DNA from: Clostridiales bacterium COT073_COT-073
Lineage (GTDB): Bacteria; Bacillota; Clostridia; Lachnospirales; Vallitaleaceae
Assembly (NCBI GenBank): GCA_003858485.1
Contig: RQYD01000003.1
Span: forward strand, 1 to 64,000
DNA: 64,000 bases
Reading direction: 5' to 3'
Both the position numbers and the translations under genes were made by a program. The first letter of the stretch is position 1, and every line of letters begins with the position of its first letter. This document shows positions 24,814 through 60,297 of the stretch, piece after piece. The notes under the pieces were generated by a model. The model made no database searches. It was given only the letters and a program-made list of their open reading frames with translations, and was not told the origin of the DNA.

Positions 24814-24860
24814 AAAAAAGAGTAAAGCTGACTTTGGATGGTCACTTTACTCTTTTTCTT
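24814..24860. terminator. Bidirectional terminator at the left edge of the island
   Basis: AAAAAGAGTAAAG pairs with CTTTACTCTTTTT around a GACTTTGGATGGTC apex. The same hairpin arms recur near 27105-27150 and 28485-28571, each time at the end of an XRE gene or fragment, so the hairpin is part of the duplicated unit. Confidence 0.8.
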
Positions 24861-25062
24861 TTGGGAAGGATACTTCCACCACTTCTTCAATCGCGCATTC
24901 CTGGAGTAGTTGGCAGATTTGCTCAAGGGTTTGCAGATTGATGTTTAGGTTAGGTTTTAATTTATGAATGGTTCGGGGATTGACCCTGTTTTTCATCAGA
25001 TAATAGGTGCTGAGATTTAGTTTTTTCATGGTATTCCACAGGGGATTATAATTATAGGGCAT
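24847..25062 (-). CDS. Small XRE/Cro-type HTH protein, copy A
   Basis: A 71-residue predicted DNA-binding protein. The pattern LWNTMKKLNLSTYYLMK, then NPRTIHKLKPN and LQTLEQICQLL, is a compact Cro/C1 helix-turn-helix. It is about 90% identical to copy C at 28560-28775, and a third copy at 27149 is truncated. The ATG at 25062 was preferred to the TTG two codons upstream. It ends inside a terminator hairpin. Upstream, in the opposite direction, is a WYL-gene remnant. In copy C the neighbour is an intact WYL gene, so the pair probably works as a regulatory unit. Confidence 0.78.
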   Translation of the reverse strand: MPYNYNPLWNTMKKLNLSTYYLMKNRVNPRTIHKLKPNLNINLQTLEQICQLLQECAIEEVVEVSFPKEKE

Positions 25063-25089
25063 AGGCAATTAAATGCTCTATTCCTAATG

Positions 25090-25238
25090 CTGAAGCGGTA
25101 ATGGACCAGCTGCCGACGGCTGAAATTTTGGAAGAAAAAGACGGAGCATATACCACCAAAGTCGAAACCTTTGGCAGAGAGATTGATATGTGGCTAAGAA
25201 GCCAGAGGGAATATGCGAGGGTGGTATGTAAAACATAG
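25090..25238 (+). pseudogene. 3' remnant of a duplicated WYL regulator gene
   Basis: This stretch encodes AEAVMDQLPTAEILEEKDG and continues to an RSQREYARVV-like end and a stop. It matches the last ~45 codons of the intact WYL gene (about 29857-29991) at roughly 85% of bases. It starts 28 bases from XRE copy A, whereas the intact locus has about 260 bases plus 270 codons between the same points. The simplest reading is a duplicated XRE-WYL unit from which most of WYL was deleted. Confidence 0.85.
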
Positions 25239-25269
25239 AAATAGATACTTTAGAAATAAACAAGATTGA

Positions 25270-25298
25270 TTGACAAAAAGTGAATTGAGAGATATAAT
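25270..25298 (+). promoter_or_regulatory. Consensus sigma-A promoter of the ATPase-TOPRIM pair
   Basis: TTGACA (25270-25275), a 17-base spacer and TATAAT (25293-25298) form a perfect consensus promoter 44 bases upstream of the ATPase start. It begins about 30 bases after the WYL remnant. Strong constitutive transcription is predicted. Confidence 0.85.
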
Positions 25299-25341
25299 TT
25301 TATTAGTTCTAAAAAGAAGAAGTAATGAAGGGGGCGATATT

Positions 25342-26448
25342 ATGATTGTGATGGATTTAAGAATTAATAATCTGTTTGGTTTTGAGGATTTTAAGGTTAA
25401 TTTTTCATATCCAAAGAAAATTGTAAATTCATTAATTGAAAATGAATTCCTTACCAGTAAACCAAGTTTTCGCTTTAAAAAACTGAATATTTTAATAGGG
25501 GCAAATGCATCAGGAAAGACATCTATGGGAAAAGCACTGATGAAAATTTTTAATTTTATTTCACGAAAAGACATTAGTGGTATCCTGGAAGTGATAAAAG
25601 ACAAAAGTAAGTCAGCAAGTTTTTCTATAGATTTCTTATGTGATGAAGAAGTGATGTATCGGGTAAGATGTTTATGCCGGGAAAATGCTGATAACACAGA
25701 AGAAAGCGTAGATTTAGAGGTTTATTCAACTAAAATACTAAAAAAAGATAGTTATGAATCATGTGTCAAAAAGTTACAATTGATGTATTCAGCAGAAGAG
25801 CAAAGTCGGTTATCCTATGCTGAAAAATTAAAATTAATCAAAAGTTTTGGTTGGCTGTTTACTTTTCCGGATAGTGGCTCCAAATTGCTTTTAGATGAAA
25901 ATGAAGTGGTTGATTTAAAGATTTTAAAGGCAATTTTACAAACTTTAGATAGTCATATCACAAATGTAAATAAAAGCAAGGAAGTAAAAAATGGCTATGT
26001 TATCCGGAGTAAAAATGGTGATGTGTTTATTCAAAATGGAGAAGTTGTGGATAAAAATATTTTATCCAGCGGAACGCAAATGGGAATTGACATTGCTTAT
26101 GTGTTAAGTTCAATTCAAAAAAATTCACATGGCTTTTATTTTTGCGATGAAAAGTTTTCCTTTATTCAGACAGATGTTGAGCAAGCAATTTTAAGTTTGA
26201 TGGTGTCATTGCTAAAGCCGAACAGTCAATTGTTTTTCACTTCACATAATATAGATTTATTAGAAATGGGATTTCCCAGACATTCTTTTACATTTTTGAG
26301 AAAAAATTCAATTATTGAAGCAGTTTACCCGGATAAATTAATCAAGAAAAATGATGTTTCCCTGCGCAATGTATTTAAAAATGATTTATTCGGAACAGCT
26401 CCGGACATTAGCAAACTATTTGCGATTGAAGAAGGTGTAGACGAATGA
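25342..26448 (+). CDS. AAA ATPase of an Abi-like two-gene defence system
   Basis: Predicted SMC/OLD-like ATPase of 368 residues (AAA_15/AAA_21 type). Walker A is GANASGKTS (about 51-59). A signature-like SSGTQMGIDIAYV comes late. The Walker B-like strand is GFYFCDEKF, and a switch histidine is in FFTSHNIDLLE. The start at 25342 has GGGGG upstream. The earlier in-frame TTG is the -35 hexamer itself and cannot be a start. It overlaps the TOPRIM gene by four bases (ATGA), so the pair is translationally coupled. AbiL (with RloB-like partner) and PARIS are known ATPase plus TOPRIM-like pairs; exact assignment needs a profile search. Confidence 0.82.
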   Translation: MIVMDLRINNLFGFEDFKVNFSYPKKIVNSLIENEFLTSKPSFRFKKLNILIGANASGKTSMGKALMKIFNFISRKDISGILEVIKDKSKSASFSIDFLCDEEVMYRVRCLCRENADNTEESVDLEVYSTKILKKDSYESCVKKLQLMYSAEEQSRLSYAEKLKLIKSFGWLFTFPDSGSKLLLDENEVVDLKILKAILQTLDSHITNVNKSKEVKNGYVIRSKNGDVFIQNGEVVDKNILSSGTQMGIDIAYVLSSIQKNSHGFYFCDEKFSFIQTDVEQAILSLMVSLLKPNSQLFFTSHNIDLLEMGFPRHSFTFLRKNSIIEAVYPDKLIKKNDVSLRNVFKNDLFGTAPDISKLFAIEEGVDE

Positions 26449-26981
26449 AAGGAGAAAATATTTTATATATTGTAGAAGGGGAAACAGAAAAGAGGTTTAT
26501 TGATGTTTTAAAACAGCATTATATCATTTCGGGTAAGGTTATTGTCTATGATTTGATAAAGAAACAACTGACCTTAAATAATTTATTTTTAAGAACCATA
26601 TCATCAAATACAACAGTGATCATTGTATTTGATACAGATGTTGATCAAGAGCAAAGTGTTCAGAGATTAAGTCAGAATTTATTGCTTTTAAAAACCAAAA
26701 TAAAACATATTAAAGATGTGATTTTGATTCCGCAAATAGCTAATTTAGAAGGTGAATTAATTTATTCCACTAATATAAAGAAAATTCAAGATTTGATTGG
26801 TTGTAAATCAGAAAAAGACTTCAAAAAGAAATTTTTAAAAATACAAGATCACTATTTGATGAACCGGCTTAAAGAAGTTAATTTTCAGCTATCAAAAATA
26901 TGGAGTAGAGCCCCCAAAAATAAGTATAAAATTTTTCAAAACCAATCATCCAAAATTAAAAATAAGAAATTGTCCAATTGA
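26445..26981 (+). CDS. Small TOPRIM-domain protein, partner of the ATPase
   Basis: Predicted nuclease-type effector of 178 residues. The TOPRIM pattern is clear: hydrophobic strand ILYIVEGETEKRF with the catalytic glutamate at about residue 11, then VIIVFDTDVD with the paired aspartates near residue 60. The C terminus is very lysine-rich, suggesting nucleic-acid contact. It is shorter than PARIS AriB and resembles RloB/AbiLii-like proteins in layout. It is coupled to the upstream ATPase by overlapping stop and start codons. The effector role (cleavage of DNA or RNA upon ATPase triggering) is inferred from family context. Confidence 0.75.
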   Translation: MKGENILYIVEGETEKRFIDVLKQHYIISGKVIVYDLIKKQLTLNNLFLRTISSNTTVIIVFDTDVDQEQSVQRLSQNLLLLKTKIKHIKDVILIPQIANLEGELIYSTNIKKIQDLIGCKSEKDFKKKFLKIQDHYLMNRLKEVNFQLSKIWSRAPKNKYKIFQNQSSKIKNKKLSN

Positions 26982-27104
26982 GATTTCGGAATTAGAGTTA
27001 ATGTAGAAAAAATTTTAAAATAAAAAGTTAAAAGAAATTGTGTCAGACAATCATTTGGTAGGTTGGTAAGATAATGCTAAAGTAGCAATAAATGTGAAAA
27101 GTAA

Positions 27105-27150
27105 AAAAAGAGTAAAGCAGACTTTATATCATTGCTTTACTCTTTTTCTT
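27105..27150. terminator. Second copy of the island terminator hairpin
   Basis: AAAAAGAGTAAAGCA pairs with TGCTTTACTCTTTTT around GACTTTATATCAT. It is the same element as at 24814, placed downstream of the TOPRIM gene and at the end of a truncated XRE copy. Confidence 0.75.
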
Positions 27151-27240
27151 TTGGGAAATTTATTTCTACTACTTCTTCAATTGCACGTTCCTGTAATAAC
27201 CGGCAGATTTGCTCAAGGGCTTGCAGATTGACGCTTAGGC
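27149..27240 (-). pseudogene. Truncated XRE-type HTH gene, copy B
   Basis: The last ~30 codons (ending EEVVEINFPKEKE-like) match copies A and C, including the run ...ALEQICRLLQE. Similarity stops abruptly near 27240, where a T-rich sequence begins. No start codon remains. It marks a third insertion or recombination of the same unit. Confidence 0.75.
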
Positions 27241-27390
27241 CATGTTTTTCTTTGTGAAATTTTTATGTATTTTTCTACAAAATTTTATGAAATTCCGCAA
27301 CCAGCGGACGACTTTTAAATTTTTTCTTGCTATAATATTTTTAGGCTGGAAAAAAGAAAGAAAATATTCTATAATGAAAGGGGAAAAAGC
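27241..27390 (+). promoter_or_regulatory. AT-rich leader of the first Rpn gene
   Basis: This short gap contains a TATAAT near 27332-27337 with T-rich sequence upstream and a GAAAGGGG ribosome binding site just before the Rpn start. A -35 hexamer is not convincing. Confidence 0.45.
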
Positions 27391-28377
27391 ATGGATAGGA
27401 GCAGTAAAAAAGAAAACTCAAAATTTAAAAAAAAGGAAGAATTAAATCAACCGCATGACCTCTTTTTTAAAGCGAATATGGGACAAAAAGAAATTTTGAC
27501 AGATTTTCTGCAAAACTATCTACCAAATGAATTAAGGGAAATTATTCAATATTCTTCATTTGTTCAAGTAGAGCCGAAAAATATTAGCTCAAACTTAAAA
27601 CCAGGAGAAGCGGATTTGCTTTTTCGTTTTCAACTTCCGAATATAAACGGTTACCTGCTCCTATTAATGGAGCACAAAAGTTACGAAGATAAATATACAC
27701 CTATTCAAATCATGCGCTATATTACGGAAATTTGGCAGCATGATTTAGCTCAAAAGCAGAGCCTTTCACCAATTTTGCCCCTGGTCTTCCATCAAGGCAA
27801 GAAATGCTGGCAATACCCACAACTTAAAGATTATTTGCCATTAGACATGCCCATTGCGCTTTTACCGTATATGCCGCTATATCAGGCATTATATTATGAC
27901 TTTTCTTGGGAAAATGCTGAAATACTTAAAGGTGGTAATTTGAGCTTTGAGTTATATATATACTTAAAAACGATTATATCTATTTATGAACCAAAACTGT
28001 CAGAATTTCAAGAGCAAACCTTAGAGTTATTTCGAGTAATCAGTCAGTTTGAAGTTGATACTTTAGTGGAAATTGCCACCAAAACCATTACTTATTTAGG
28101 AACTGCGCGAAAAGATTTTAGTGAGGAAAAAATCATTGAATTGGTCAAACAATCAGGAGGTGAAAAGACTATGGAAACCATTTTTGATAGAATAGAACAA
28201 CAGGGCATTGTAATTGGCGAAAAACGTGGAGAGATTAGAGGTATTTCTATTGGCGAACAGCGAGGGAAACAGCAGGAGAAACTGGCTTTTGCAGTCAAAC
28301 TGAAAAGGGACTTGTTTCCAATAGAAAAGATTATGGAATACACCGGACTTAGTCGGGAAGAGATTTTAGATTTGTAG
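27391..28377 (+). CDS. Rpn-family PD-(D/E)XK nuclease, copy 1
   Basis: 328 residues; often labelled a 'transposase' (PDDEXK_2 / transposase_31) but not an IS transposase. The catalytic core is visible: HDLFFKANM at the start, EADLLFRF (catalytic aspartate) and LLLMEHKSY (E-x-K) near residues 70-95. The C terminus has the linker rich in G, E and R (GEKRGEIRGISIGEQRGKQQE) followed by a short helical tail with YTGLSREEILDL. E. coli Rpn proteins stimulate recA-independent recombination and recent work links them to phage defence. It has only moderate similarity to the second copy at 59088. The role inside this island is inferred. Confidence 0.85.
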   Translation: MDRSSKKENSKFKKKEELNQPHDLFFKANMGQKEILTDFLQNYLPNELREIIQYSSFVQVEPKNISSNLKPGEADLLFRFQLPNINGYLLLLMEHKSYEDKYTPIQIMRYITEIWQHDLAQKQSLSPILPLVFHQGKKCWQYPQLKDYLPLDMPIALLPYMPLYQALYYDFSWENAEILKGGNLSFELYIYLKTIISIYEPKLSEFQEQTLELFRVISQFEVDTLVEIATKTITYLGTARKDFSEEKIIELVKQSGGEKTMETIFDRIEQQGIVIGEKRGEIRGISIGEQRGKQQEKLAFAVKLKRDLFPIEKIMEYTGLSREEILDL

Positions 28378-28484
28378 AAATTATGGATTGGGATTGATTT
28401 TAGTGTATTTTAATGGACAGTGATTTGACTTTAAAAATTAGACTTTGTTTTGATTTTGATAGAAGTACAAGTAGGGAAATAAAA

Positions 28485-28571
28485 AAGAGCAAAGCATTTG
28501 CACTGATTGCCAATTGTTAGATTCTGATCTGACCTTTGGATGGCGATACAGTTGTTGCTTTACTCTTTTTC
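28485..28571. terminator. Third, expanded copy of the island terminator hairpin
   Basis: AAAAAGAGCAAAGCA and TGCTTTACTCTTTTT are the pairing arms, here with a loop of about 55 bases. It serves the end of XRE copy C on the minus strand and possibly the Rpn gene on the plus strand. Confidence 0.65.
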
Positions 28572-28775
28572 TTTTGGGAAGGATATTTCCACCACTTCTT
28601 CAATCGCACATTCCTCAAGTAATTGGCAGATTTGTTCAAGGGTTTGCAGATTGACATTCAGGTTGTGTTTTAATTTATAAATGGTTCGGGGATTAACCCC
28701 ATTTTTAATCAGGTAATAGGTGCTGAGATTTAGTTTTTTCATGGTTTTCCACAGGGGATTATAATTATATGGCAT
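28560..28775 (-). CDS. Small XRE/Cro-type HTH protein, copy C
   Basis: A 71-residue protein nearly identical to copy A at 24847-25062, with the same compact helix-turn-helix (LWKTMKKLNLSTYYLIK, NPRTIYKLKHN, LQTLEQICQLL). It is divergent from the intact WYL gene across about 260 bases. That gap should hold both promoters and so could be co-regulated by the two DNA-binding proteins. Autoregulation is an inference. Confidence 0.78.
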   Translation of the reverse strand: MPYNYNPLWKTMKKLNLSTYYLIKNGVNPRTIYKLKHNLNVNLQTLEQICQLLEECAIEEVVEISFPKEKE

Positions 28776-28979
28776 AGGCAAAGTCCTTAAAAGCAGATAG
28801 ATGGTTTCGTAAATATAGTATAGACAAAAACTGTCATAAAGGATATACTTACGATAGTATGCAGAGGTGCCGATAAAGAAAGTGAGGTCCGATAAATGAT
28901 ATAGGGTATATTAGTATAATGAGTGACTTTGATTATATCCCGAAAAACTTTGATCACATAAAATATCATGTTGGATAAA

Positions 28980-29010
28980 GACAGATTATGTCATATAAAA
29001 ATGCTATAAT
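28980..29010 (+). promoter_or_regulatory. Predicted WYL promoter with overlapping inverted repeat
   Basis: A TATAAT (about 29005-29010) lies 28 bases before the WYL start, with AAAGGAGGAG as ribosome binding site. Just upstream, GACA-N5-TGTC (28980-28992) is a small inverted repeat in the -35 region and a candidate operator. No good -35 hexamer is present, which would fit a regulated promoter. Confidence 0.45.
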
Positions 29011-29037
29011 ACTCTTATCAGGTTAAAGGAGGAGTAT

Positions 29038-29991
29038 ATGGAAATCGAAAGAAATGGCAAAATTGATCGAGTGCTGGAGTTGTATACCAAGTTAATTAGT
29101 GGCAATATCATTAATAAAGCCAATGAAGCCCAAAATTATGGAGTGAATGAACGCTCTATTCAAAGAGATATTGAAGATATTCGCAATTTTTTGGAAGTGC
29201 GTTCGATCGAAGATGGCTATGTGGATACCGTTAAATATGATCGTGAGAAAAAGGGCTATTGCCTGGAGCAGAGCCGGGTGATGAAACTGACCAACAGCGA
29301 GATTCTGGCAATTTGCAAAATCCTCTTGGACAGTCGAGCCTTTACTAAAAAAGAAATGGAATCGATGCTAGGGCGATTGATTGACTGCTGCATCCCTAAG
29401 GAAAACGCCAAAATGGTGGATGATTTAATAAAAAATGAAGAATTTCATTATATTGAGCCAAGGCATAAGACGGTTTTTATTGAGCAAATGTGGGAAATTG
29501 GTCAGGCAATTCGTAACTTTAATTATATCGAAATAAAATATTTGCGCAATAAGGATAAGTCAATTGTTAGCCGTAAGGTGAAACCGGTGGCAATTATGTT
29601 TTCGGAATTTTATTTTTACCTGACTGCCTTTATTGATGACAAGGATGAATCCAGAGAACATTTTGATGTGCTGAATGATGCCTTTCCGACGATTTACCGG
29701 ATTGACCGGATTAAGGAATTGAAAGTATTGGATGAGAAATTTCATATTCCCTACAGCAGCCGTTTTGAAGAAGGCGAATTTCGCAAACGCATTCAATTTA
29801 TGTATGGCGGTAAATTGCAAAAAATCAAATTCATTTACTCCGGTCCCAATGTTGAAGCGGTATTGGATCGGTTGCCGACAGCTGAAATTTTGGAAGAAAA
29901 AGATGGAACATATACCATCAAAGCCGAAACCTTTGGCACAGGCATTGATATGTGGCTAAGAAGTCAGGGGGAATATGTGAGAGTGATATAA
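29038..29991 (+). CDS. WYL-domain transcriptional regulator
   Basis: 317-residue HTH-WYL protein. The N-terminal winged helix spans about 10-60 (INKANEAQNYGVNERSIQRD). The WYL domain follows around 155-230, with IEIKYL, SRKVKPVAIMFSEFYFYLTAF and YRIDRI as core strands. The WCX-like C terminus contains the segment duplicated at 25090. WYL regulators such as BrxR and CapW repress phage-defence loci and sense nucleic-acid ligands. The dynamin gene starts 58 bases downstream on the same strand, so control of that cassette is likely. AAAGGAGGAG provides a strong ribosome binding site. Confidence 0.9.
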   Translation: MEIERNGKIDRVLELYTKLISGNIINKANEAQNYGVNERSIQRDIEDIRNFLEVRSIEDGYVDTVKYDREKKGYCLEQSRVMKLTNSEILAICKILLDSRAFTKKEMESMLGRLIDCCIPKENAKMVDDLIKNEEFHYIEPRHKTVFIEQMWEIGQAIRNFNYIEIKYLRNKDKSIVSRKVKPVAIMFSEFYFYLTAFIDDKDESREHFDVLNDAFPTIYRIDRIKELKVLDEKFHIPYSSRFEEGEFRKRIQFMYGGKLQKIKFIYSGPNVEAVLDRLPTAEILEEKDGTYTIKAETFGTGIDMWLRSQGEYVRVI

Positions 29992-30049
29992 GGGATAATA
30001 TATCAACGAAATATCATAAGAATGTGAATGATGGAAAATGGAGATTACT

Positions 30050-58730: not shown

Positions 58731-58837
58731 TTAGAAGAGATGCCACATGATGATACCTTAAATTAAGAGTTGTTTGGTTATTTCCACCGCCAGACCAAAT
58801 GCTTCGCATTTGCCGCACCTGCCGGTGCTCTTTATCT

Positions 58838-58902
58838 GGCGGTGACGCACCGCAAAATGTAAATGTCCGCTGCGCGGCCGCTTCCATTTTGCTTGCGCGC
58901 GT
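58838..58902 (-). repeat. Diverged partial family-3 repeat
   Basis: GGCGGTGACGCACCGCAAAATGTAAATGTCCG and CGGCCGCTTCCATTTT-like blocks match parts of 18799-18905, but the right end differs. It lies just before the direct repeat that brackets the second Rpn gene. Confidence 0.45.
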
Positions 58903-58915
58903 CAAATTAAGATTT

Positions 58916-59009
58916 GGAGCGACTTTCGCCAACTATTTTTCTGTGAGCTGTGGATATAGACAAAAAAGTTAACATGCACGATGGGGCAAGAAAAAATAAA
59001 TTTATTCTT
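58916..59009 (+). repeat. 94-bp direct repeat, left copy, bracketing Rpn copy 2
   Basis: From GGAGCGACTTTCGCCAACTA to the TTTATTCTT end, it matches 60120-60213 at about 92 of 94 positions. The left copy ends about 80 bases before the Rpn start codon; the right copy lies about 80 bases after the stop. The distance between copies is 1204 bases. Confidence 0.9.
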
Positions 59010-59087
59010 CGCTACTGTCAAAAATCAGCTTTTATTGACAAAACCCCGAAACACGATTACAATAAAAGTACCAAAAAGGAGAAGTGC

Positions 59088-60038
59088 ATGGACAAAGAAG
59101 ACATCACCCTCTATCAGGGACATGATAAGTTTTTTAAAGCGGTCATGCAGGATAAGGGGGCTAAAGAAGATTTTTTAAACACCTATTTACCGGAAGAACT
59201 AAAAGCCGACTTGGATGTGGAACAAGTAGAAGCTGTAGACGGCAAACAGATCAGCAGTAAACTGCAGCTCCAAGAATCCGACCTATTGCTCAAAGTCAAA
59301 GGAAAAGACAGCGATGTCTACATCCTGACATTAATGGAGCATAAAAGCTATGCCGATCGCAAAACGAGCTTTCAGATCCTGCGATATATGCTGGCGATCT
59401 GGGAAAGCCAGCTGGAGAGAAAAGAAGAACTTCAGCCAATTGTGCCGATCGTGATCTATGAAGGAAAAAACAAATGGGAATACCCGCAAATCGGAAAACA
59501 CTTTGAAAAAATACCGGAAAAATGGCAGCGTTTCTTGCCGTATTATGAAAGCCTGTTTTATGATTTTTCCATGGAAAGAGCGCTGGAGCGGCTGCCGGAA
59601 AATGTGTATTTAAAAAACTATATTCAAATGATCCGCTTGGTATACGAACCGGACAAAAAGAAATTGATCCAGGAGCTGGTGGAAGCATTTTCGATGATCT
59701 CTGACGATGAAATCTTGATAGAAATCTTTCGCCGTGCGGTGTTATTTGTGGATTATGTTAAGCGGAATGAATGGGAAGAAAGTATTGTAGAAGTTCTGAA
59801 AGGAGAAGAGATCATGCCGAATGTCATTGAACTATGGGAAGAGCAACTTATGGAAAAAGGCAGAGTTGAAGGTAGAGCTGAGGGCAGAGCTGAGGGCGAA
59901 GCGGTGGGAATAGAAAAAGGCAGAGTTGAAGGTAGAGCTGAGGGCAGAGCTGAGGGCAAACGCAGCATTGCCGAAACCATGAAAAACCTGGGGTACTCTT
60001 TGGAGGATATCAAGAAAGTAACGGGCTTGATGTTATAA
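59088..60038 (+). CDS. Rpn-family PD-(D/E)XK nuclease, copy 2
   Basis: 316 residues. Catalytic core: HDKFFKAVMQDKGA, ESDLLLKV (aspartate), and TLMEHKSY (E-x-K) at about 60-90. The C terminus carries tandem GRAEGRAEG units encoded by a 60-base repeat, then NLGYSLEDIKKVTGL. AAAAGGAG precedes the start; the longer frame from 58950 lies inside the direct repeat. The gene is flanked on both sides by 94-bp direct repeats, which suggests that it is moved or duplicated as a unit. Rpn proteins are linked to recombination and phage defence. Confidence 0.87.
   Translation: MDKEDITLYQGHDKFFKAVMQDKGAKEDFLNTYLPEELKADLDVEQVEAVDGKQISSKLQLQESDLLLKVKGKDSDVYILTLMEHKSYADRKTSFQILRYMLAIWESQLERKEELQPIVPIVIYEGKNKWEYPQIGKHFEKIPEKWQRFLPYYESLFYDFSMERALERLPENVYLKNYIQMIRLVYEPDKKKLIQELVEAFSMISDDEILIEIFRRAVLFVDYVKRNEWEESIVEVLKGEEIMPNVIELWEEQLMEKGRVEGRAEGRAEGEAVGIEKGRVEGRAEGRAEGKRSIAETMKNLGYSLEDIKKVTGLML
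59853..59957 (+). repeat. Tandem repeat within the Rpn C-terminal region
   Basis: A 45-base block (GAAAAAGGCAGAGTTGAAGG and onward) occurs twice with a period of 60 bases and no visible mismatch. It encodes EKGRVEGRAEGRAEG. Such identical units allow slippage and length variation without frameshift. Confidence 0.85.
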
Positions 60039-60119
60039 AGTGCAACAGTCCCTTTGTACCGAAGGAATTTACGGAAAAAATGATATAACCGGATATTGGC
60101 AGGAAATAAAAACCTGTAA

Positions 60120-60213
60120 GGAGCGACTTTCGCCAACTATTTTTCTGTGAGTTGTGGATACAGACAAAAAAGTTAACATGCACGATGGGGCAAGAAAAAA
60201 TAAATTTATTCTT
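60120..60213 (+). repeat. 94-bp direct repeat, right copy
   Basis: Matches 58916-59009 with two differences (AGT for AGC and TAC for TAT in the GAGCTGTGGATATAGAC section). It lies downstream of the Rpn gene. Confidence 0.9.
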
Positions 60214-60297
60214 TATTACTGGAATATGAAAGAAATGATTGAAACTTAATTATCATTGTGTTAAAATAATTTTAATCATTCCAGGAAGGAATCAATC

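Follow-up and report, generated by a model that had tools for sequence, protein, structure and literature searches.

In the window, by which we mean the whole 64,000-nucleotide stretch of DNA analyzed here, a single Rpn nuclease gene lies between two nearly identical copies of a direct repeat, R, that adjoin the two edges of the Rpn unit. Our favored but tentative reading is that R is target DNA that was duplicated when the Rpn unit joined in, by end extension and template switching. It is an unsolved problem how rpn, which lacks transposase-like ends, spreads as a single gene; an excess of locus-specific duplications, together with an edge fit that is near base level, supplies a concrete footprint of either a long target duplication or the remnant of a tandem amplification.

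The Rpn gene and its bracketing repeat

The rpnL-like gene occupies positions 59088 to 60038 of the plus strand (ATG at 59088, Shine-Dalgarno sequence from 59073) and encodes 316 amino acids. It matches PF04754 with an E value of 6.7e-37 (127.5 bits against a curated cutoff of 21) and TIGR01784 with an E value of 7e-22 (78.5 bits against a cutoff of 52.1). The gene is a member of an already known family, in which RpnL cleaves DNA and is blocked by RpnS (PMC10327210, PMC5350276); a toxin/antitoxin function for the window gene is presumed from that family. Nested in it on the plus strand is an rpnS-like frame of 74 amino acids with RxEG repeats (59814 to 60038; Shine-Dalgarno sequence from 59799, ATG at 59814), which also occurs as a stand-alone frame on contig C14. 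Given the layout of RpnL/RpnS genes (PMC10327210), this frame is a putative RpnS-type antitoxin. A sigma-70-like promoter, TTGACA-17-TACAAT, lies on the plus strand between the left copy of R and the gene (59035 to 59063) and is kept in the related sequences on contigs C14 and C58. Homology with these two contigs places the edges of the Rpn unit, which runs on the plus strand from the promoter region to a truncated terminator, at 59018 and 60119.

Window self-comparison and an own-genome search placed the left copy of R at 58916 to 59017, and the right copy lies at 60120 to 60221 in direct orientation, at a spacing of 1,204 bp; both are given on the plus strand. The copies are identical at 97 of 102 positions, with longest perfect runs of 52 and 32 bp. 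The BLAST E value of the pair, window against itself, is 8e-40, and hence the match is not due to chance. An assembly duplicate is also unlikely, since there are five differences between the copies, which sit deep within a 142.8-kb contig. The original prediction described 94-bp repeats, about 98% identical, that lie symmetrically around an Rpn gene. Over that length 92 of 94 positions do agree, although the repeat is slightly longer; only one gene, the PF04754 gene, lies between the copies, and the placement is fairly called symmetrical, with the ATG 70 bp after the left copy and the right copy 82 bp past the stop codon.

Perhaps R is simply a dispersed repeat, the finding that the original prediction had named as fatal to its proposal? 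A search of the genome (3.54 Mb in 166 contigs; E <= 0.001) returned two copies of R, both at this locus, and we rejected this possibility. In 96 related genomes the only match was one of 38 bp in G051 (E = 2.5e-4), which we set aside as a relative of R because it is short and weak. The repeat was likewise absent next to the other Rpn genes of the genome, where it had been suggested to look for it; R is thus not the terminal repeat of an Rpn element.

The Rpn unit sits in an intergenic region, with an enoyl-CoA hydratase gene on one side and a methyltransferase gene on the other. Abutting the left copy of R, and outside the bracket, is a palindromic repeat (58780 to 58915) dispersed in dozens of copies through the genome. 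This REP/BIME-like element is about 130 bp long, sometimes occurs in tandem pairs and folds far better than its shuffles (z = -4.4 and -5.7). We considered whether R is the end of this element and rejected the idea, as the flanks of its other copies are unlike R.

Edges of the Rpn unit and the origin of R

Two relics of the window Rpn unit are present in the same genome. The one on C14 (L013:1450-1772) has the promoter region joined straight to a stand-alone rpnS-like frame that is intact and has fewer RxEG repeats than the one in the window, and the relic on C58 (L019:1457-1607, minus strand) shows the same promoter-rpnS fusion followed by further decay. Both have lost the toxin part, and their promoter runs directly into the internal rpnS start, with the junction at the shared Shine-Dalgarno sequence AAAGGAGAAG. 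Such a toxin-antitoxin gene would become a solo antitoxin by a single deletion from one ribosome-binding site to the other.

These relics define the edges of the unit. Homology with C14 begins at 59018, one base past the end of the left copy of R. Homology with C58 begins 13 bp later, and hence the left edge is set by one relative. On the right, homology with C58 extends to 60119-60127, and the right copy of R begins at 60120, inside a terminator that is intact in the C58 relative. The terminator hairpin is complete in C58 and cut short in the window, where its second half is gone; at the break, AAG[A/G]AGCGAC is common to the window and C58. Neither relative carries R, so that R is not supported as a component of the Rpn unit. 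On both sides the repeats thus directly adjoin the unit, and they are missing from its relatives, as expected of duplicated target DNA.

A route consistent with these junctions can be outlined. A unit of about 1.1 kb, with its own promoter, rpnL with nested rpnS, and terminator, would have joined into an intergenic site, leaving some 102 bp of target, R, on each side. The joining would have been nonhomologous: the right edge of R would have supplied an end for extension on an Rpn template, and this end would then have switched back, at the short common sequence AGCGAC, to where R begins, with loss of the latter half of the Rpn terminator. The Rpn nuclease itself may have taken part. RpnA cleaves with little sequence specificity and leaves 3'-OH ends that a polymerase can extend, and primer-template switching was put forward in the same study (PMC5350276). 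This published work does no more than suggest that the nuclease had a role in the insertion.

The uniqueness of R, the fit of its edges to those of the unit, the truncated terminator, the presence of AGCGAC in both sequences and the enrichment of brackets at Rpn genes all support the reading of R as duplicated target DNA. So do target-type brackets of different sequence elsewhere, of which the best is in genome G098. Several points count against it. The same-genus genomes do not preserve the interval in which an empty site with a single R would be seen, and no such site was found. A duplication of 102 bp is far beyond the lengths made by known transposases. The left edge is drawn from C14, and the repeat at another Rpn locus, on contig C84, is derived from Rpn rather than from a target. 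A published survey of rpn genes reports variable ends and no target-site duplications (PMC10327210), and we found no bracket at the rpnA, rpnB and rpnC loci of K-12.

The same arrangement may instead be what is left of a tandem array, a possibility to which we give appreciable but lesser credence. Here the segment 58916-60119, R plus Rpn, would have been duplicated at AGCGAC and the second copy deleted past its R, to give R-Rpn-R. Published work explains rpn arrays by tandem duplication of rpn regions (PMC10327210), Rpn pairs stand in tandem in G018 and G002, and in E. coli K-12 rpnE is followed by ypaA, a partial copy of the rpnE 3' end. However, two events are required at the window locus, neither relative of the unit carries R, and the start of the deletion must fall within 0-9 bp of a unit edge that C14 sets independently. 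No Rpn sequence was matched beyond either copy of R near the locus. We favor duplication of target DNA because it explains the edges with one event, whereas tandem duplication and loss needs a coincidence.

Could R-Rpn-R still be an active cassette that excises and reinserts, or amplifies, through its repeats? The 52-bp perfect run in R is, in principle, sufficient for homologous recombination between the copies. The end of contig C69 and the start of contig C84 (L121 end; L072:1-85) share an 85-bp repeat that recurs past the Rpn gene; the two contigs probably adjoin, and the break is compatible with structural variation there, but it is equally explained by a repeat that short reads did not resolve. 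Moreover, Rpn loci lack common ends, R is confined to the window locus, the unit contains no recombinase, and published work holds no sign of autonomous rpn transposition (PMC10327210). We found neither an excised junction nor a tandem copy of the window unit nor a recombinase gene, so that excision or duplication through the repeats, as the original prediction suggested, is at most a possibility. Nor was an empty site with a single R found; the same-genus genomes do not preserve the interval. For this search we used G001 and G002 orthologs of the methyltransferase gene, the phosphotransferase-like gene beside C84, thiI and the mannose-6-phosphate isomerase gene, and synteny ended at or before the gene ends. 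We consider an active cassette improbable. Homologous recombination between the R copies could nonetheless remove the gene and leave one R, and either origin of the bracket predicts that rpn genes can be lost by recombination of this kind.

Brackets at other Rpn loci

Direct-repeat brackets, each of a different sequence, flank 5 of the 12 Rpn genes examined in this genome: the R locus, a locus at 27 kb of the window, and those on C84, C94 and C134. Brackets were rare among control open reading frames (ORFs): 1 of 93 had one in the Rpn stretches, and 2 of 189 in a 380-kb sample from other parts of the genome, of which it makes up about a tenth. The own-genome comparison yields p = 2e-6 when pooled (5/12 against 3/282) and p = 5e-5 without a case made of XRE paralogs (4/12), values that are optimistic because the criteria were fixed after the first cases had been seen and varied slightly between the two counts. 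More independent is the count from other genomes of the order, where a bracket was present at 4 of 33 Rpn genes and at 2 of 161 control ORFs (p = 0.008), two of the four cases being weak. Brackets were lacking at the majority of the Rpn genes examined. Of the own-genome brackets, those of R and C84 were checked for genome-wide copy number.

Gene-flanking repeats might merely be common in a repeat-rich genome and unrelated to Rpn. The genome does hold the dispersed palindromic repeat described above, and the bracketed loci in G390 and G018 involve short elements that look dispersed and may be so. The scarcity of brackets among controls and the restriction of R to one locus, however, largely refute such a coincidence, which we regard as the least credible of the explanations considered. 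The proposal that the Rpn gene forms a mobile unit thus survives in one respect, as Rpn loci own brackets of differing sequence more often than other genes do, and fails in another, as R does not represent a mobile-element end.

The brackets differ in kind. Those at C94 (47 bp) and C134 (46 bp) are terminators. The clearest case in another genome is in G098, where an intergenic segment of 84-90 bp, comprising the terminator of the upstream gene and the region before enolase, is duplicated around the Rpn gene, its right copy beginning 3 bp past the Rpn stop codon. Intrinsic terminators in the repeats at C94, C134 and G098 would insulate the gene, and the flanking copies might therefore have been retained for function, for instance as a pair of insulators or operators flanking a toxin gene. 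R itself has no terminator-like site, and we did not retain it as a terminator; it folds no better than shuffles on the plus strand (z = -0.9; other strand, z = -1.9). Near-identical copies also point to duplication rather than convergence, and retention for function seems very unlikely.

The bracket at C84 has 85 bp and 100% identity. Its repeat is homologous to the Rpn terminator on C36, with 39/62 positions identical where the best of 2,000 shuffles reached 29/62, and corresponds to the 3' half of an Rpn terminator; homology of the neighboring gene with its G002 ortholog stops exactly where the repeat starts. Being derived from Rpn, this repeat is what a mostly deleted tandem copy would leave, and tandem duplication with loss of the second copy fits C84 better than it fits the window locus. 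The excess of brackets is probably a mix of target-type duplications and tandem-array remnants. We conclude that Rpn loci are associated with local duplications, which would be scars left either by acquisition or by tandem duplication. A broader proposal, that rpn spreads as single-gene units by nuclease-assisted microhomology or template-switch insertion, with locus-specific target duplications of about 50-150 bp that permit clean gene loss, is speculative, and we think it unlikely to hold as a whole.

The 27-kb bracket of the window is no clean case: it has 83% identity and is made of paralogous small XRE-like genes. It belongs to a defense-like array (24814-30000) comprising an AbiL-like ATPase/partner pair, an Rpn gene and a WYL regulator, whose members are separated by three copies of the small XRE-like gene sequence; the AbiL-like pair is bracketed too. 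The 3' end of the WYL gene is repeated at 25082-25227.

Other observations concern Rpn loci outside these counts or the sequences upstream of them. In G001 (contig C3), a 66-bp, 85% direct repeat flanks a broken Rpn-family gene (L093:1331-1396 and 2279-2344). Downstream of the mannose-6-phosphate isomerase gene of G001 lies a 54-bp segment matching the Rpn upstream block (L145:2755-2807); at the same locus C94 holds a full Rpn gene, and the match is possibly a remnant of an Rpn unit lost in the sister species. The block GAAATTCCGCAACCAGCGGACGACTTTT is conserved in the window, starting at position 27252, and some 250 bp upstream of Rpn genes on seven contigs (C84, C94, C69, C36, C101, C77 and C112). 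It contains the palindrome TCCGC-N5-GCGGA, the arms of which covary (TCCTC/GAGGA in C77), and is likely an operator or a structured upstream element common to one Rpn subfamily.

Comparison with known systems

The window gene resembles E. coli RpnA-E (PMC10327210, PMC5350276) in its N-terminal PF04754 domain, the four-residue repeats near its C terminus, the internal Shine-Dalgarno sequence and ATG for a small C-terminal protein, and its occurrence as multicopy, single-gene units. It differs in being flanked by a direct repeat of about 102 bp, none having been reported in the survey. For E. coli rpnE we found no empty site, the gene being present in nearly all sampled rows. As in tandem rpn arrays and at K-12 rpnE-ypaA, there is local duplication around an rpn gene; at rpnE-ypaA, however, it is the 3' end of the gene itself that has been copied, whereas the window R lies outside the unit as judged by relatives.

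Target-site duplications of insertion sequences are short and of fixed length. Like them, the Rpn brackets place the same sequence on both flanks of an insert and differ from locus to locus, but they vary in length, from about 46 to 150 bp, and the Rpn units have neither terminal inverted repeats nor a known transposase. Transposable elements carry the same terminal sequences at several copies; R is found at one locus. Integrase-borne islands are similar in that attL and attR are direct repeats of tens of base pairs, and the C84 repeat lies at the 3' end of a gene, but the bracketed Rpn units carry no integrase and the C84 repeat comes from the Rpn side rather than from the gene. A literature search on similar single-gene insertions with duplications returned nothing relevant. 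What is added here to a known family is the over-representation of bracketing repeats in the order and the close edge fit at one locus, and not a new kind of system.
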